Positions 28,760-35,925 of a stretch of 35,925 nucleotides of DNA are shown here, piece by piece. Positions within the stretch are counted from its first letter, which is position 1; each line of letters begins with the position of its first letter. This stretch comes from a bacterium (lineage in GTDB: Bacteria > Vulcanimicrobiota > Vulcanimicrobiia > Vulcanimicrobiales > Vulcanimicrobiaceae). Both the position numbers and the translations under genes were made by a program. Location of the stretch: contig JAJYMV010000086.1 of assembly GCA_021786705.1 (NCBI GenBank), positions 1 to 35,925 of the forward strand, read 5' to 3'. The notes below the pieces were generated by a model that was not told the DNA's origin, ran no database searches, and saw only the letters and a list, made by a program, of their open reading frames with translations.

Positions 28760-29974
28760 GTGAGCAGCGAAGCACTTCCCTTTTCCGTCGCCGATGCGGG
28801 CATCGACCGAAAGGGAATCTCTCTCCTTTCGATCGCTCATATCGTCAACGATGCGAATCAATCCGCCATTCCGGCGATGATTCCGTGGCTGATTAGCCAC
28901 CGCGGGCTCAACCTTGCGACCGCGGCGACGCTCGTTCTCGCGATGAACCTCTCGTCCTCGGTCGTGCAGCCGATTTTCGGGCATTGGTCCGATCGTCGTT
29001 CGATGCCGTGGATCATTCCCGCCGCGCTCGTTCTCGCCTGTAGCGGAACTGCGGCGATCGGGCTCGCGCATTCGTTGCCGATGATGTGGCTGGCGGCATT
29101 GATTGCGGGCATCGGAACCGCGGCGTTCCACCCCGAGAGTTCGCGCTTTGCAAACTTCTTCGCCGGTGCGAAGCGCGCGACGGGGGTGAGCATCTTTACG
29201 CTCGGCGGATACCTCGGCTTCGCCGTCGGTCCGATTCTTACGACGCCGTTGATCCTGCATTTCGGTCTCGAAGGCACGGCGTTTCTCGCGATTCCCGGCG
29301 TCGTACTCGCGACGATCCTTTTGTTTTCGCAGCAGCATTTTCACGCCACGCGCGCGCGTGCGAATCGCGCGGTCACCGCGGGGCCGACGCTGCCCGACGA
29401 TTGGCGCGCGTTCGGTGCGCTTGTCGTTGTGGTGGTGCTCCGTTCGACGACCTTCTTCGCAGGCGTCACGTTTCTCCCGGTCTTTGCTATTGCGGTCGCG
29501 CACGCGAGCAAGACCGGCGGCAGTATCGTGCTTGCGGCGATGCTCCTCGTCGGTTCGTTGGGAACGATGTGGGGAGGCCGGCTCGCCGACCGTTTCGGCC
29601 GCCGCCGCATCATCGCGATCTCGATGTTGGGAACGCTCGTCGGAGCCTCCGCGCTCGCATGGGTCGGAACGCACGCGCCGCAATTGAGTAACGTCGTTCT
29701 CGCGGCATCGTTCTTCGGGCTCGCGGTCGGTCTCTCGGCGGGCGTGATCGTGGTGCTGGGGCAAGAGTATCTCCCCAACCGCATCGGCGTTGCATCGGGG
29801 GTGACGCTCGGGCTCGCGGTCACCATCGGTGGCCTCGCGCAGCCGCTCTTCGGCGCGATCGGCGACCGTTTCGGCAGCGTGCCGATCTTCGAATGCGTCG
29901 CGCTCTTCGCGTTACTCGCTCTCATCGGTACCGCCGTGCTGCCGCGCAAAACGCTCGTCGCGAGCCGACGCTAG
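28760..29974 (+). CDS. MFS transporter, fosmidomycin-resistance (Fsr) type
   Basis: A 404-residue inner-membrane protein with about 12 membrane segments. Fsr-like marks are LLSIAHIVNDANQSAIPAMIP near the start, SSVVQPIFGHWSDR in the first cytoplasmic loop, GIGTAAFHPESSRFA, and GGRLADRFGRRR between segments 8 and 9. E. coli Fsr exports fosmidomycin, but most relatives have no known substrate, so drug efflux is only a guess. The start is GTG; it is divergent from the PaiB-like gene across 77 bases. Its TAG stop shares the palindrome CTAG with the stop of trmL on the other strand. Confidence 0.85.
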   Translation: MSSEALPFSVADAGIDRKGISLLSIAHIVNDANQSAIPAMIPWLISHRGLNLATAATLVLAMNLSSSVVQPIFGHWSDRRSMPWIIPAALVLACSGTAAIGLAHSLPMMWLAALIAGIGTAAFHPESSRFANFFAGAKRATGVSIFTLGGYLGFAVGPILTTPLILHFGLEGTAFLAIPGVVLATILLFSQQHFHATRARANRAVTAGPTLPDDWRAFGALVVVVVLRSTTFFAGVTFLPVFAIAVAHASKTGGSIVLAAMLLVGSLGTMWGGRLADRFGRRRIIAISMLGTLVGASALAWVGTHAPQLSNVVLAASFFGLAVGLSAGVIVVLGQEYLPNRIGVASGVTLGLAVTIGGLAQPLFGAIGDRFGSVPIFECVALFALLALIGTAVLPRKTLVASRR

Positions 29975-30495
29975 AGCAAATTCGGAAAGTCGAGCCGCTG
30001 TAATGCCGCGAAGGCGACGACACCGACGGCGGTGGAGAGATTGATGCTGCGCACCGCGCCCTCGCGCATGGGTATCCGCAACGTTCGATCCGGAAAGCGA
30101 TCGAGCAGCGATTGCGGCAATCCTTTGGTTTCGCGGCCGAAGACCAGCGCGTCGCCGTACGAATAGGGAGCGCGGTCGTAGCGTGCCTGCGCGCGCGTCG
30201 AGAGCAACCACATGCGACGTGCGATCGGTGTCTGCAGAAATGCATCGAGATCGCGGTGCACGACGACGTGCATGCGCTCCCAGTAATCGAGCCCGGCACG
30301 TTTGAGCGAGCGATCGTCGATCGCGAAGCCGAGCGGTTCGACGAGGTGGAGCGCCGCGCCGGTTGCGGCGCAGAGCCGCGCGACGTTTCCGGTGTTCGGC
30401 GGAATCTCCGGTTCGACGAGAACGATGTGGAGCGGTACGTCGGGAAGCGCTTCGACCTCGGTTAGGCGATCGGGTGGTTGTGCCGCGGCGCTCAT
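29971..30495 (-). CDS. trmL: tRNA (cytidine/uridine-34-2'-O)-methyltransferase
   Basis: A SPOUT methyltransferase that modifies the wobble base of tRNA-Leu, acting as a dimer. The 174-residue protein has PEIPPNTGNVARLCAATG, LHLVEPLGF and LKRAGLDYWE in the N-terminal half. The trefoil-knot SAM site is LVFGRETKGLP, IPMREGAVRSINLSTAVGVVAFAAL. The ATG at 30495 overlaps the stop of the C39-like gene (ATGA); an open frame continues upstream, but that part has no TrmL homology and lies inside the peptidase gene. It is the last gene of the minus-strand operon. Confidence 0.93.
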   Translation of the reverse strand: MSAAAQPPDRLTEVEALPDVPLHIVLVEPEIPPNTGNVARLCAATGAALHLVEPLGFAIDDRSLKRAGLDYWERMHVVVHRDLDAFLQTPIARRMWLLSTRAQARYDRAPYSYGDALVFGRETKGLPQSLLDRFPDRTLRIPMREGAVRSINLSTAVGVVAFAALQRLDFPNLL

Positions 30496-31379
30496 GCGAG
30501 AAGATCCGCAAACGGAATGCCGACCGGTGCGAGCACGTAGGCGACGCCGCCGTGCCGCTGCCAACAGCGCTCCAGCGCGCGGCGCGGATAGATGGTGCGA
30601 ATGCGAGGGGCGGCGGGATCGTTCATCACGCAATCGCCGTTCGAGGTGAAGCCGCAGAGCACCGCGAGATGCCCGGCGGAGCGCGGAATCGGGGCGCCGG
30701 GAAGCTCGCCTTGTTCCCACGCATACGAGAGTGCGAGCGGGAGATTGCGTTCGAGAAACTGCTCGGCGATATCGAGCGAGCCGACGTACGCGAGTGCGGC
30801 TCGGAGGCTCTGCGTTCCGGCGTAGGCGACGTTAAATGCCCAGTTGCCGTATCCGCCGTAGACCTCGTCGAAGACCCCTGCGGCGACCTCTTCGATGCGC
30901 GCGTCGATCCCATGAAAGCGCAACAACATCGTCAGCGATGCGGGGCTGCACCACCCCGCTTCGCCTTCGATGACGTATTGCGATTGCAGTGGAACGTCGT
31001 GGATGCGCGCGCCCCCCGCATAGGGGAACGACGGCTGCGGCTGCGTCGGGGTTGCAAGCGCGAGGCTCTGCAAACCGTCGGGGTTGGTGCGCACGTGTAC
31101 CGCATCGAAGGGCACCTCGCTGCGAACGATATCGGTGAGCACGCTGACGCCGAGCAGGTTGCAGGGAAACGAGCGCCGCGACTGCGGCGACCAGCGAGCG
31201 AAGGGCAGCCACGGGCTAACGTGCGCCGCGCCGCTGCGCAGCGAAAATTCAATCTCGCCGCTCTCCGCAAAACTATTCCATGAGAGCACGCATTCCATCG
31301 CCGGCGCGCAACGCAGCGTCGTGACCGCGGCGGCTTCGGTTACGAGTGCGAAGCCGACGGCACGACCTCCCATTGCCAT
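30492..31379 (-). CDS. C39-like peptidase with N-terminal beta domain
   Basis: A 295-residue protein. The C-terminal half is a papain-fold peptidase_C39_2-like domain: the nucleophile Cys144 in GWCSPASLTMLL, a conserved GGYGNWAFNVAYAG stretch, His237 in SAGHLAVLCGF and Asn253-Asp254 in VMNDPAA. The N-terminal 130 residues (SWNSFAESGEIEFSLR, WLPFARWSPQSRRSF, LTDIVRSEVPFDAVHVRT) resemble the beta-rich domain that precedes such peptidases in other bacteria. I see no signal peptide, so a cytoplasmic role is possible. It lies between a peptide-binding lipoprotein and trmL, overlapping the first by 40 bases from the ATG at 31379 (an ATG at 31373 is also possible). Peptide or murein-peptide hydrolysis is the likely role. 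Confidence 0.75.
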   Translation of the reverse strand: MAMGGRAVGFALVTEAAAVTTLRCAPAMECVLSWNSFAESGEIEFSLRSGAAHVSPWLPFARWSPQSRRSFPCNLLGVSVLTDIVRSEVPFDAVHVRTNPDGLQSLALATPTQPQPSFPYAGGARIHDVPLQSQYVIEGEAGWCSPASLTMLLRFHGIDARIEEVAAGVFDEVYGGYGNWAFNVAYAGTQSLRAALAYVGSLDIAEQFLERNLPLALSYAWEQGELPGAPIPRSAGHLAVLCGFTSNGDCVMNDPAAPRIRTIYPRRALERCWQRHGGVAYVLAPVGIPFADLLA

Positions 31380-32953
31380 GCATTCCACGAATCCCCGATG
31401 AACGCCGCCGGCAAGTATCCTCGCACGCGGTCGTCGATTGCGGTGGTCGAACGCTCCCAGTACACGAAAACCATCGGTACGAGTTCGTGGATGCGCTCCT
31501 CCTCGCGCTGGTAGAGTTGCTTCCGTAGCGCGATGTCGAACGTTGAGGCGGCGGCCTGCGAGGTCGCATCGACGATCGGGTCGCGCAACCAATTCGTATT
31601 CGCACCGTTGGGCGGAATGAACGCGCTGTTCCACGAGCCGCTGTTATCGGGGTCGGGGCCGTTGGTATCGATGCTCCACTCCATATCGTAGTGCCCACTG
31701 TAGATCGGGCCGTTCTGCGCGAAAAGAAAACTCGGCGGGAAATTGCGGATGCGCAGATCGATGCCGAGCCGATGCAGCATCGCTTGCATGACGACTTCGG
31801 CGCGTTCGTTCGATTGGCGATTACTTCCGCTAATGATCGTGAGCTGGAGCGGTTTTCCGTCGCGCGTGCGGATGCCGTCCTTGCCGCGGTGCCAGCCTGC
31901 CGCGCGCAACAGTGCGGCGGCGCGAACCGGATCGTAGGGATACGGAGCGATCTTCGGTGCGGCCCACGACTCGGGAAAAATATCCGAGACCGCGGGAAGG
32001 TCGACGCCGTGGTAGATGGTGTCGCGCAGGCGCTTCCAATCGATGCCCTCGGCGATGGCGAGGCGCACCCGTACGTCGCTCAAAATAGGACGACTGCAAT
32101 TAAATCCGAGGTGGCGCCAATTTGCGACGAGCGTGTGCACGACGTGGATGCCCGATATCGAGGCAAGTTCGGGAAGCTGCGTCTCACCGACGGAGGGGTC
32201 GACGTCGATTTCGTGCGTTCGCAACGCGTTGAGCATCGAGTTCGCATTGGGAATGACGACCCAACGAACGCGAGCGAGTTTCGGTTTTCCGCGGAAGTAC
32301 CGCGGGTTCGCCGCAAAGGTGAGCGAAGCACCGTGATGCCAATCTTCGAGGAGGTACGGGCCGCTAGAGAGCGGTGCGTTGTTGAACGAGGCGCGGTTGA
32401 GGCTGGGAAGGCGCGCGAGAAGGTGCGCCGGAAGCGGAGGATAGCCCGAACCGCCGATCGCGAGAACGCCGAGAAATGCCGCCATGGGGTGTTTCAGGCG
32501 GATGACGATGGTGTGGCGCGTCGGAGCGCTCGCCGATGCGATGTCGTCCCATCCGTACCGCGTCTTGACATCGTTGCGCGGATTGAAGACGGCACGATAG
32601 GTGAACATCCAGTCGCGCGCATCGAGCGGTGCGCCGTCGGCCCAGCGCACGCCGTGCCGAAGATGGATCGTAATGCGCTTGCCGTTGGGGCTGATGCCGC
32701 CGTTCCGGAGCGTCGGCACTGCGGTCGCGAGATCGGGAATGTAATTGCCGCGCGCATCGTAGCGAAGGAGATAGCTAAAGAGCATGCCGTCGGCGAGATC
32801 GGCGGCGGCCGAGTGGCCGAAGAGCGGATTGAGATTGTCGGGCTCGTCGGGTTCGCCGAGTCGCAGCGTGTTGGGCGGAGGCACGTTGGCGGCGCATCCG
32901 GCGAAACCGAAGGCGAGTGCGGCGACACAGAACGCGGCGACGATGCGTTTCAT
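31340..32953 (-). CDS. Peptide-binding lipoprotein of ABC transporter family 5
   Basis: A 537-residue solute-binding protein of the OppA/DppA family (SBP_bac_5), anchored by a lipobox LAFGFAGC (Cys20). Family marks include LRLGEPDEPDNLNPLF at the start of the mature protein, ITIHLRHGVRWADGAPLDARDWMFTY, and DVRVRLAIAEGIDWKRL. Such proteins bind di- or oligopeptides, including murein tripeptide in MppA. No permease or ATPase gene is in this window, so it either works with a transporter encoded elsewhere or has a purely binding role. The ATG overlaps the upstream DgcN-like gene by 4 bases (ATGA). Confidence 0.92.
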   Translation of the reverse strand: MKRIVAAFCVAALAFGFAGCAANVPPPNTLRLGEPDEPDNLNPLFGHSAAADLADGMLFSYLLRYDARGNYIPDLATAVPTLRNGGISPNGKRITIHLRHGVRWADGAPLDARDWMFTYRAVFNPRNDVKTRYGWDDIASASAPTRHTIVIRLKHPMAAFLGVLAIGGSGYPPLPAHLLARLPSLNRASFNNAPLSSGPYLLEDWHHGASLTFAANPRYFRGKPKLARVRWVVIPNANSMLNALRTHEIDVDPSVGETQLPELASISGIHVVHTLVANWRHLGFNCSRPILSDVRVRLAIAEGIDWKRLRDTIYHGVDLPAVSDIFPESWAAPKIAPYPYDPVRAAALLRAAGWHRGKDGIRTRDGKPLQLTIISGSNRQSNERAEVVMQAMLHRLGIDLRIRNFPPSFLFAQNGPIYSGHYDMEWSIDTNGPDPDNSGSWNSAFIPPNGANTNWLRDPIVDATSQAAASTFDIALRKQLYQREEERIHELVPMVFVYWERSTTAIDDRVRGYLPAAFIGDSWNAWQWEVVPSASHS

Positions 32954-34005
32954 GCGGTGCGTGCCTCGCGCTTCGAAAGCGATCCGGCGATCGCAGCGTA
33001 GAACGCATCGGCACCGAATCGGAGCAGATCGTCGGCGGGCAGTCCCGTCTCGTCGCGCGCCCGTGCGATCTCGCGTCGCGCCGCGACATCATCGAGGCCG
33101 CGCGTGTTGAGCGCGACGCCGACCACCTTCGCCGGCTTCACCGACGCGAGCAGCGATTCGTGCAAGGCGATGAGGTCGCGATAGGGCAGCGTCGGGGTTG
33201 TGTAGGCGTTAATCGTCGCTCGGTGCGGCATGCAGACGAGCACGAGTGCGTCGGGCGCGCACCCATAGAGCAGCGCGAGCGTCACCGGCGCGTACGCGGG
33301 GTGATTGATCGCTCCTTGCCCTTCGACGACGATGGTATCGGGGCGCTGCGAAGCGGCCTCGAGCACGAGGCGCTCGCAGGCTCCGGCTGCGAAATCGGCG
33401 ATCGTTCGATCGACGGCGATGCCCCAACCCGCAATCGCGATGCCGGTCTGCCCGGTCGGGACGAAGCTCCACGTGCGCCGCGCGCGCTTCGCCGCGGCAC
33501 AGAGTTCGAGCGCGACGGTCATCTTTCCGACGTTGCAATCGTTGCCAACGGTCAAAAGGATCGGCACCGGAATATCGTATGCCGCGCCGGAGAAGACCGG
33601 CGTTGCCGGAACCGCGCGAAGATCGTAGAGGCGAACGCCGCGCTCGCGTGCCGCAGCGGCGATTTCGTCATCCTCGGCGAGCATCGCATGTAGGCCGCTG
33701 ACGATGTCGAGCCCGGCTGCGACCGCTTCGAGTACTCCCGCGCGGAGATCGCCGAGCGCGCCACCGATCGGTGCGGTGCCGATGAGGAGCGCGGTCGGCT
33801 CGAACGCAAGCGCATCGCGCAGCGACGCGACGATGGGAGCATCGCAGTGCGAGAGATGCGGAACGACGTCGCAGACGCGTTTGCCCGCCCGGCTTGGATC
33901 GACGACCGCGACGACCGGGTCGTTGCCGTAGGCGATGACGCCGTGTGCGGTCTTCGCACTCTGCGCGAATGCGTTGGGGGCGAGGACGACGTAGCGGCGG
34001 CTCAC
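32950..34005 (-). CDS. DUF1611 family protein, DgcN-like
   Basis: A 351-residue protein of the DUF1611 family. It has an N-terminal Rossmann-like domain (about 1-140) and a P-loop domain with VGNDCNVGKMTVALEL, near VPTGQTGIAIAGWGI and VVEGQGAINHP. The family includes DgcN, described with DgcA in a bacterial D-glutamate catabolic route; the neighbouring gene here is exactly a DgcA-type enolase-superfamily enzyme, which supports that link. The start is GTG at 34005, overlapping the upstream stop (GTGA). The frame stays open upstream to 35862, through the epimerase and photolyase regions, but that part is not coding. Exact substrate is not certain. Confidence 0.8.
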   Translation of the reverse strand: MSRRYVVLAPNAFAQSAKTAHGVIAYGNDPVVAVVDPSRAGKRVCDVVPHLSHCDAPIVASLRDALAFEPTALLIGTAPIGGALGDLRAGVLEAVAAGLDIVSGLHAMLAEDDEIAAAARERGVRLYDLRAVPATPVFSGAAYDIPVPILLTVGNDCNVGKMTVALELCAAAKRARRTWSFVPTGQTGIAIAGWGIAVDRTIADFAAGACERLVLEAASQRPDTIVVEGQGAINHPAYAPVTLALLYGCAPDALVLVCMPHRATINAYTTPTLPYRDLIALHESLLASVKPAKVVGVALNTRGLDDVAARREIARARDETGLPADDLLRFGADAFYAAIAGSLSKREARTA

Positions 34006-35018
34006 GAAGTGGGAGTTTCGCGGACGCCGAGGCCGGGCCCGCCGGGGAGCACGAGCTTTCCGCGATCGTAGGTGACGCCGACGAACGGGTCGCCTGCGGT
34101 GAGGAAGGGGCCGTCGATATCGGCCCAATCGACGAGCGGGCTGATCTGTGCCGCCGCGGTGGCGAGAATCGCGCTCTCCACCATGCACCCGAGCATCACT
34201 TTCAATCGCAGCGCACGCGCGGTATGAATCATCGCGAGCGCGCCGCGGAGCCCGCCGCATTTCACGAGTTTGATATTGACGCCCGCAACGCAGCCGGCGA
34301 GCCGCGGCAAATCGGCGGCCTCGCACGAGTCCTCGTCGGTAACGATGGGGATTGCGCTGCGCGCGGAGATCGCGCGCAATCCGGCGGGATTGCCGGCGGG
34401 AATCGGTTGTTCGCAAAATTCGATATCGAAACGCGTGAGTTCGGCGAGCATGAGTATCGCTTCGTCGACATCCCAGCCTTCGTTCGCGTCGATACGGATC
34501 GTCCCGGTATAACGCGCGCGTATCGCCTCGATCGTTTCGACTTGTTGGTGCAGCGCTCCGAGCCCGAGCTTGATTTTGAGAATCGGGTGCTCGCGTACTT
34601 CGTCGACCTTCTTCAACGTGCTCTCGGGGTCGGCGATGCCGATGGTGAACGAGGTCGTCGGCGTTCGTTGGGGATCGAGCCCGAAATATTCGTAGAGCGG
34701 TCGCCCCGTCGCCTTGCCGACCCAATCGTGCAGCGCGACGTCGAGCGCGCAGCGCGCGGCCGGTGGAATCGTCGGAGCGAGCAGTTCTTCGAGCCGATAT
34801 GGCGATGCCGCGTCGGCGCGGTACGAAGCGAAAAACGCGAGCAGCGATTCGACCGATTCGCCGTAACGGGCGATCGGCGCGCTCTCCCCGAGCGCGTCGA
34901 TTCCATCGCAGGACATGCGGAGCAACGTCGAGCGCGCAACGGTCGATTCGCCGCGGGTGATTTTGAAAGGGTGCTTCAGCGGGATTCGGAGCTCGCTCGC
35001 CGCAAAGGTTGCGTTCAT
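34002..35018 (-). CDS. Enolase-superfamily dipeptide epimerase / DgcA-type racemase
   Basis: A 338-residue enzyme of the muconate-lactonising subgroup. Catalytic residues are in place: Lys148 and Lys150 (LKIKLG), Asp177 (RIDANEGWD), Glu203 (FCEQPIP), Asp228 (VTDEDSCE) and Lys250 (NIKLVKCGG). Asp300 and Asp302 (DWADIDGP) form a DxD motif of the kind that L-Ala-D/L-Glu epimerases use to hold the amino end of the dipeptide. It may therefore epimerise L-Ala-D-Glu from murein, or act as an N-acetyl-D-glutamate racemase like DgcA. The ATG at 35018 has GGAAGG 8 bases upstream; its first bases lie in the CATG shared with the photolyase start. Confidence 0.87.
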   Translation of the reverse strand: MNATFAASELRIPLKHPFKITRGESTVARSTLLRMSCDGIDALGESAPIARYGESVESLLAFFASYRADAASPYRLEELLAPTIPPAARCALDVALHDWVGKATGRPLYEYFGLDPQRTPTTSFTIGIADPESTLKKVDEVREHPILKIKLGLGALHQQVETIEAIRARYTGTIRIDANEGWDVDEAILMLAELTRFDIEFCEQPIPAGNPAGLRAISARSAIPIVTDEDSCEAADLPRLAGCVAGVNIKLVKCGGLRGALAMIHTARALRLKVMLGCMVESAILATAAAQISPLVDWADIDGPFLTAGDPFVGVTYDRGKLVLPGGPGLGVRETPTS

Positions 35019-35019
35019 G
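35016..35019. promoter_or_regulatory. Shared CATG: face-to-face start codons of the epimerase and photolyase genes
   Basis: The palindrome CATG provides ATG for the epimerase on the minus strand (35018-35016) and ATG for the photolyase on the plus strand (35017-35019). Each start has its own ribosome-binding site with 8-base spacing: AAAGG at 35004-35008 for the photolyase, and GGAAGG on the minus strand for the epimerase. Each site lies inside the other gene, so both 5' leaders, and at least one promoter, must be within opposing coding sequence. Confidence 0.7.
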
Positions 35020-35925
35020 CCGCGAGCCTTCCGCCCATCCGGCCGCACTCCTCGGCGCAGCATCCTTTGGCTGCGTCGCGACCTTCGCTTGCGCGATAAC
35101 GTCGCGCTCGCCGAGGCGGCGGGGGCGAGCGATGAGGTGGCGCTCGCTTTCGTGCTCGCTCCCGCGCTGCTGCGCGGCGAGCGCGTGGGTGCACCCTTGG
35201 TGCAAGCGTTCTTTTCCGCACTCGCCTCGCTGCGCGCGGAGCTGCGCGCGCGCGGCAGCGAGCTCGCGCTGCTCGAAGGCGACTTCGCGGAGCAGTTCGT
35301 CGGCTTCGCGCAGCGTATCGGCGCGACATCGCTCTATTATAATGAAGATTACGAGCCGGAGGCGATCGAACGCGACGCACGCGTGCGCGCGGCACTGGAA
35401 TCGGCGGGCGTCGCCGTGCACTCCTCGCTCGATCACGTCTATTTCGGCGCCGACGAAGTGCGCACCGAGGGCGGCGCGCCGTACCGCATCTTCACGCCGT
35501 ACAAACGCCGGTGGCTCGACCAACACGCGCTCGCACCGCGATTGCCGGTGCGCTCGAATCGAGCGAGTGCGGAGCGACTTCTCGCACGCGCGGAGATCGG
35601 AGCGACGCTCGAACTCCCCGAGCCGGAGACGTACGGGCACCATTCCTCGGCGGCGTATCCGAGCTGCAGCGAAGCCGGCGCGCGCGCGCGCCTCGACGGC
35701 TTTCTCGCGGAGGGTGGCGCGAGTGACGGTTATGCGGTCGGGCGCGATCTGCCGGCAATCGAGGGAACCTCGCGGCTCTCCCCCGATCTGCGCGCCGGGA
35801 CGATCGGCATACGCACCTGCGTCGAGCGAGCGCGCGCGGCGATGGAGGGCGCGAGCGCGCAACGCCGGGCGAGCCTCGAGGTGTGGCTTTCCGAGTTGAT
35901 CTGGCGGGATTTTTACCAGCAGATT
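35017..35925 (+). CDS. phrB: Deoxyribodipyrimidine photolyase / cryptochrome family, 5' part
   Basis: A light-dependent DNA repair flavoprotein; 303 codons are present without a stop, and the gene runs off the right edge (family length about 450-480). The N-terminal antenna domain begins RSILWLRRDLRLRDNVALAEA, and YYNEDYEPEAIERD and YRIFTPYKRRW follow, as in class I CPD photolyases. The FAD domain starts with EGTSRLSPDLRAGTIGIRT, where the family has TSxLSPxLxxGxIS, and ends in view with ELIWRDFYQQI (family ELxWRxFY). Key tryptophans of the electron chain lie past the edge. The ATG at 35017 is used, with AAAGG 8 bases upstream. Photolyase is favoured over a cryptochrome-like receptor, but this cannot be decided from the part seen. 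Confidence 0.93.
   Translation, partial: MPRAFRPSGRTPRRSILWLRRDLRLRDNVALAEAAGASDEVALAFVLAPALLRGERVGAPLVQAFFSALASLRAELRARGSELALLEGDFAEQFVGFAQRIGATSLYYNEDYEPEAIERDARVRAALESAGVAVHSSLDHVYFGADEVRTEGGAPYRIFTPYKRRWLDQHALAPRLPVRSNRASAERLLARAEIGATLELPEPETYGHHSSAAYPSCSEAGARARLDGFLAEGGASDGYAVGRDLPAIEGTSRLSPDLRAGTIGIRTCVERARAAMEGASAQRRASLEVWLSELIWRDFYQQI

Follow-up and report, generated by a model that had tools for sequence, protein, structure and literature searches.

A conserved epimerase-DUF1611-SBP-C39 operon as a candidate system for the salvage of D-glutamate-containing peptides

Contig JAJYMV010000086.1 (assembly GCA_021786705.1), analysed here over its full 35,925 nucleotides and referred to as the window, raises the question of what is accomplished by a single run of overlapping genes encoding an enolase-superfamily epimerase, a DUF1611 protein, a family-5 substrate-binding protein (SBP), a C39-like cysteine peptidase (C39) and a TrmL-type RNA methyltransferase. 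The window belongs to a metagenome-assembled genome of the Vulcanimicrobiaceae (2.19 Mb, 185 contigs, 89% complete). The initial annotation had proposed that the run extends the two-gene DgcA-DgcN pathway of D-glutamate (D-Glu) into an operon for murein peptides. We consider the chances about evenly balanced that the operon serves the salvage of D-Glu-containing peptides, most likely murein stem peptides.

The five minus-strand genes, delimited by their open reading frames (ORFs) and by Pfam matches that all exceeded the gathering scores, overlap head to tail from position 35018 down to position 29971. The stop of the epimerase gene and the GTG start of the DUF1611 gene share the bases GTGA, the DUF1611 and SBP genes overlap by ATGA, the SBP and C39 genes by 34 or 40 bases, depending on whether C39 starts at 31373 or 31379, and the C39 and trmL genes again by ATGA. 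Coordinates, Pfam assignments and junctions thus bore out the five overlapping genes and the identities initially given to them. A lipobox-like AGC motif was recognized by eye close to the N-terminus of the SBP.

Conservation was examined in 98 related genomes, 79 from the class of the window, a group of soil and rock bacteria that consists of families f1 (that of the window), f2 and f3, and 19 from other classes. DUF1611 matches above the family cut-off were obtained in 76 of the 98 genomes, and matches above 100 bits in 72/79 class genomes and 0/19 genomes of other classes. The C39 profile was detected in 71/79 class genomes, with no detection in the remaining 8, and in 8/19 genomes of other classes, one of them weak (21.8 bits). 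Seventy-eight DUF1611 loci were fetched and mapped by profile searches; having been selected for holding DUF1611, they are silent on loci without it. Loci L034-L041, which are repeats or near-repeats of genomes in L047-L124, were excluded from the residue and gene-order counts, and the maps of some G+C-rich loci in which the codon-based gene caller takes wrong frames (e.g., L061, L153 and L156) were left unused. The order epimerase-DUF1611-SBP-C39 on one strand was found in 54/78 loci (f1 42/59, f3 12/15, f2 0/4), counted as the order of detected matches, with intervening genes in some loci. The neighbourhood survey that the initial annotation had proposed therefore revealed conservation in relatives and, since homologues recur in the same order in most class loci, the run lies far beyond chance. 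The full run was also present in genome G017 by profile mapping.

In loci of sufficient length, the epimerase gene was located directly upstream of DUF1611 in 46/53 (f1), 0/3 (f2) and 12/13 (f3), and the SBP gene directly downstream in 47/57, 0/3 and 14/14, respectively. C39 was encoded within 3.5 kb of DUF1611 in 40/52 loci of f1, 3/3 of f2 and 13/13 of f3, and trmL stood beside the run in 41/49, 3/3 and 0/13. The loss of trmL from f3 runs in which the four other genes persist indicates that epimerase-DUF1611-SBP-C39 constitutes an old unit and that trmL, initially counted as part of the run, is probably a passenger. Its product scored above the cut-off of the SpoU methylase family and, at 178.6 bits, below that of the TIGR00185 equivalog (190.6).

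Intact active sites accompany this conserved order. Including the window, the alignments held 69 epimerase, 73 DUF1611, 66 C39 and 69 SBP sequences, once those shorter than 290, 300, 220 and 450 amino acids (aa), respectively, had been dropped. Residues K148, K150, D177, E203, D228 and K250 and the D300-x-D302 motif of the epimerase were invariant (69/69), and the catalytic residues are common to YcjG, the Bacteroides epimerase 3iji and annotated DgcA. The window protein carries the residue signature of enolase-superfamily dipeptide epimerases, whose parts we take to be the K-x-K motif, the D-E-D metal ligands, the second Lys and the DxD motif. Its candidate substrates would be L-Ala-D-Glu or N-acetyl-D-Glu, both of them N-acyl glutamates. 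The P-loop of the DUF1611 protein (G154-x-D156...G160-K161) was likewise invariant (73/73). The peptidase of the window has the Cys-His pair and the Gln and Asn of papain-type enzymes; Q122, C132 and H225 (numbered from the codon at 31343) were conserved in 66/66 sequences and N241 in 65/66.

The AlphaFold2 model of C39 (pLDDT 94.5, pTM 0.92) confidently predicts a beta-sandwich followed by a papain-like domain. Among solved structures, the nearest folds were those of C39 peptidase domains, of the C39-like protein 3erv and of the pseudomurein endoisopeptidase PeiR (151 residues, Z 16.6, rmsd 2.6); a fold in common with PeiR does not establish a common substrate. The N-terminal beta-sandwich alone (pLDDT 90.4) gave no Foldseek match under E 0.001, the best Z being 6.1. 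A Pfam search at E 0.001 matched only C39_2 in the window peptidase and no NlpC/P60 domain of the YkfC type. Since PF00877 (NlpC/P60) is present in 67/79 class genomes, usually in one copy, we make no case for C39 as a substitute for an absent NlpC/P60 enzyme. SH3_6 (PF12913), considered as a marker of YkfC, was uninformative, with 0/79 matches in class genomes and also 0/14 in controls that included Bacillus subtilis. The C39 leader is short in f1 (highest mean hydropathy over 15 residues 0.21 to 1.61), and in all 14 mapped f3 copies the N-terminal stretch is longer and hydrophobic (1.54 to 2.21), which suggests a cytosolic peptidase in f1 and an exported or membrane-anchored one in f3.

Further evidence comes from C39 genes whose contexts are independent of Eremiobacterota synteny. 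In a Spirochaetaceae locus (L044, in genome G100), C39 is preceded by genes for an M15 peptidase of the D-Ala-D-Ala dipeptidase type, an alanine racemase, an M20 peptidase, an S66 LD-carboxypeptidase, a diaminopimelate decarboxylase (lysA 458.7 bits, cut-off 297.9) and an M19 dipeptidase; beyond C39 lie a convergent beta-lactamase-like gene and then Opp transporter genes. Another spirochaete locus (L147, 8543-11011) encodes a single 823-aa protein that joins C39 to a beta-lactamase-type domain and whose neighbours are an SH3b1-NlpC/P60 protein, Opp genes, an SBP and an alanine racemase. In locus L143, which comes from another class of the phylum and has no DUF1611, a two-gene run lies divergently to C39; it encodes a 330-aa protein without Pfam match, followed by an epimerase that groups as sister (100/99) of 3iji, the Bacteroides dipeptide epimerase. 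These three contexts point to murein peptides, so that the setting initially proposed for the C39 family was seen elsewhere. This cross-phylum support comes from few genomes: a survey of spirochaetes detected C39 in 5/296 genomes, strongly in only 2, in addition to contigs L042-L044. DUF1611 was found in 0/5 genomes carrying distant C39 genes (three spirochaetes and two Clostridia-like). Among the entries listed from an open-licence library, none linked C39 with murein peptides and none, by title and abstract, dealt with DUF1611 in such an operon.

Table 1. Genes of the overlapping run in the window
Product	Coordinates	Strand	Features
Enolase-superfamily epimerase (DgcA / L-Ala-D/L-Glu epimerase relative)	34002..35018	-	338 aa; MR_MLE_N/C (Pfam)
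DUF1611 protein (DgcN-like)	32950..34005	-	GTG start; DUF1611_N/C (Pfam)
Family-5 peptide-binding lipoprotein	31340..32953	-	537 aa; SBP_bac_5 (PF00496), 245.6 bits, gathering cut-off 32.4 (Pfam)
C39-like cysteine peptidase	30492..31379	-	start ATG 31379 or 31373; Peptidase_C39_2 (PF13529), 47.9 bits, cut-off 24 (Pfam)
TrmL/SpoU-type RNA methyltransferase	29971..30495	-	SpoU_methylase (Pfam)

Some further arrangements were seen around these genes. At 35017-35925 of the window, a photolyase-like gene (recognized by motif) is transcribed away from the operon, hardly any sequence separating the two. The first ATG of this gene overlaps the start codon of the epimerase gene, and the real photolyase start is therefore probably further in. 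In two f2 loci (L106, 5113-7006; L107, 2388-6304), genes for a GNAT acetyltransferase and a major facilitator superfamily protein lie between epimerase and DUF1611, in a run without SBP. In locus L057 (genome G014), the DUF1611 gene is found outside the operon, beside a gene of the dihydrodipicolinate synthase family (PF00701) and one that by eye is proline-racemase-like.

How might these proteins work together? In the scheme that we infer, from substrate and permease to the bond cut, the acetylation and the flow of steps, the SBP would capture a peptide for import, and C39 would cut it, in the cytoplasm in f1 and as an exported or membrane-anchored enzyme in f3, releasing either D-Glu itself or an N-acyl-D-Glu (L-Ala-D-Glu). 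The epimerase would then invert the alpha carbon of the N-acyl-glutamate to the L form, destined for catabolism. It would act on L-Ala-D-Glu or on N-acetyl-D-Glu supplied by the DUF1611 protein, which could provide a second entry, via acetylation, for free D-Glu. That C39 itself cuts at D-Glu is a doubtful step of this scheme. Equally tentative is the broader idea that the C39 family represents a third unrelated cutter of murein stem peptides at D-Glu, besides MpaA and YkfC, coupled to the epimerase and a DUF1611 acetyltransferase in such a way that L-Ala-D-Glu and free D-Glu would both yield L-Glu, and ancestral in the class.

Regarding import, the five-gene run holds no permease gene. The genome of the window has three SBP_bac_5 genes and seven BPD_transp_1 matches above the cut-off (23 matches in G017). 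One strong DppBC-like permease pair is located on another contig (C173), on which no SBP gene was recognized by eye among the listed ORFs of at least 180 aa. Next to this pair on the same contig (L125, 4633-7427) is a gene that, by eye, looks like one for a beta-keto acid cleavage enzyme. In E. coli, no dedicated operon accompanies MppA either; this protein works with the Opp or Dpp permease.

Several observations weigh against the salvage of murein peptides. The epimerase scored below the DgcA equivalog NF042940 (228 bits, cut-off 400; 228.7 for the G017 copy) and the DUF1611 protein below the DgcN equivalog NF041892 (201 bits, cut-off 480; 212.6 for the G017 copy). As the epimerase also missed the L-Ala-D/L-Glu epimerase equivalog NF011708 (142.6 bits, cut-off 343), the substrate choice is left between L-Ala-D-Glu and N-acetyl-D-Glu. 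In murein-peptide SBPs of the MppA/DppE type, an acidic residue is expected to bind the free alpha-amino group. Position D429 of the SBP, matched by motif only to the Asp with which peptide SBPs hold this group, is Asp in just 33/69 and Glu in 12/69 sequences. An S66 LD-carboxypeptidase occurs in only 12/79 class genomes and in 0/10 of the window's genus. The aspS gene also stays close (within 8 kb in 11/22 f1 and 4/4 f3 testable loci), and part of the conservation is therefore regional synteny. In L149 and L150, the run retains epimerase-SBP-C39 but lacks DUF1611, L148 keeps only SBP-C39-trmL, with both DUF1611 and epimerase gone, and in f2 neither SBP nor epimerase adjoins DUF1611 (0/3 testable loci each). 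Since spirochaete locus L147 holds an NlpC/P60-SH3b1 gene as well as C39, the bond cut by YkfC need not be the one that C39 cuts. Copper-resistance clusters of Deinococcus plasmids (L160, L161, L162 and L165) also contain C39 homologues, three of them matching over the N-terminal domain as well; M23 or amidase genes are present in two of these clusters. Finally, a gene of the C39 family is found in the haloarchaeon Haladaptatus, and this archaeon has no murein.

Three other explanations must be set beside murein-peptide salvage. The operon might catabolize free D-Glu in the manner of DgcN-DgcA, the DUF1611 protein N-acetylating D-Glu and the epimerase racemizing N-acetyl-D-Glu, with SBP and C39 feeding in general peptides. 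DgcA and DgcN are indeed the best NCBIfam matches of the window pair, the two genes are adjacent in 58/66 testable f1 and f3 loci, and annotated dgcN-dgcA pairs exist in Pantoea and Pseudoalteromonas records. We nevertheless judge this explanation unlikely, given the missed equivalog cut-offs and the survival of epimerase-SBP-C39 without DUF1611 in L149 and L150. Moreover, in our tree 14 class epimerases, the main group of the class with that of the window included, fall outside the 100/100 group formed by annotated DgcA, YcjG, 4gfi, the Sphingobium epimerase and the second-locus copies of L062 and L079. Scores and tree position together mean that the initial naming of the pair as DgcA and DgcN is not demonstrable.

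Those second loci (L062, L079 and L083, in genomes G018, G034 and G038) bear on a different possibility, namely that other D-amino-acid peptides, non-ribosomal or gamma-glutamyl, are scavenged instead of murein. They hold DUF1611, epimerase and SBP homologues and no C39, next to M81/MlrC-like metallopeptidases, PF00144 serine hydrolases or TonB/CarboxypepD_reg proteins, a setting that resembles the scavenging of microcystin-like D-peptides; a Sphingobium plasmid locus is similar to them, and the archaeal C39 genes fit the same idea. However, the C39-bearing loci lacked those genes in the maps read and murein-peptide enzymes abound in the C39 locus of the spirochaete, which makes this possibility distinctly unlikely. 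Very improbable, in our estimate, is the absence of any joint pathway, with an old syntenic block of photolyase, epimerase, DUF1611, SBP, C39, trmL and aspS kept by slow rearrangement. The proximity of aspS favours such a block, but the four genes remain in f3 runs without trmL, the DUF1611-epimerase-transporter and C39-epimerase pairings recur in unrelated surroundings, and the genes overlap by a few bases.

If the operon does salvage D-Glu-containing peptides, the consequences would reach beyond the window. The walls of dead cells are a nitrogen source in nutrient-poor places, where Eremiobacterota are common according to PMC9758169, and a class-wide operon for the salvage of peptides and D-Glu would account for some of their diet. 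A function would be gained for the C39-like peptidase family and for distant DUF1611 proteins, and two pathways treated apart, those of the dipeptide epimerase and of acetyl-shielded D-Glu, would be joined. The run appears to be present in the cultured Vulcanimicrobium alpinus, making the question testable in culture.

Among known arrangements, ykfB-ykfC-oppA of B. cereus comes closest. PMC2954226 presents the Bacillus ykfABC(D)-dpp and ykfB-ykfC-oppA clusters as murein peptide genes, and the YkfC peptidase as predicted to stay in the cytosol in certain relatives and to be exported in others (B. subtilis, B. cereus). As in ykfB-ykfC-oppA, an epimerase of the same superfamily, a papain-like cysteine peptidase and an oligopeptide-binding protein are encoded together here, and the cytosolic and exported forms of the peptidase parallel those predicted for f1 and f3. 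Unlike the Bacillus clusters, the run contains an inserted DUF1611 gene, lacks S66 and permease genes, and encodes a C39-like peptidase in place of an NlpC/P60 enzyme with SH3b domains. The murein tripeptide recycling system YcjG-MpaA-MppA of E. coli also combines a peptidase, an epimerase and an SBP with permeases encoded elsewhere, but MpaA is a metallocarboxypeptidase, whereas here a cysteine peptidase shares one run with epimerase and SBP. DgcN-DgcA, a D-Glu pathway according to PMC10845958, shares with our operon the adjacency of DUF1611 and an enolase-superfamily racemase and the catalytic residues of annotated DgcA; the pair described here differs in its scores below the equivalog cut-offs, in the added peptidase and in a gene order reversed relative to Pseudoalteromonas and Pantoea. 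A Pantoea ananatis plasmid carries dgcN-dgcA followed by a complete Opp/Gsi-type ATP-binding cassette transporter, and thus DUF1611, epimerase and peptide-type SBP in one run; the ATP-binding protein and permeases are encoded there too, whereas a peptidase is absent. With this precedent, a peptide-binding protein beside dgcN-dgcA does not amount to the extension of the two-gene pathway that the initial annotation saw in it; the unusual partner is the C39 peptidase.

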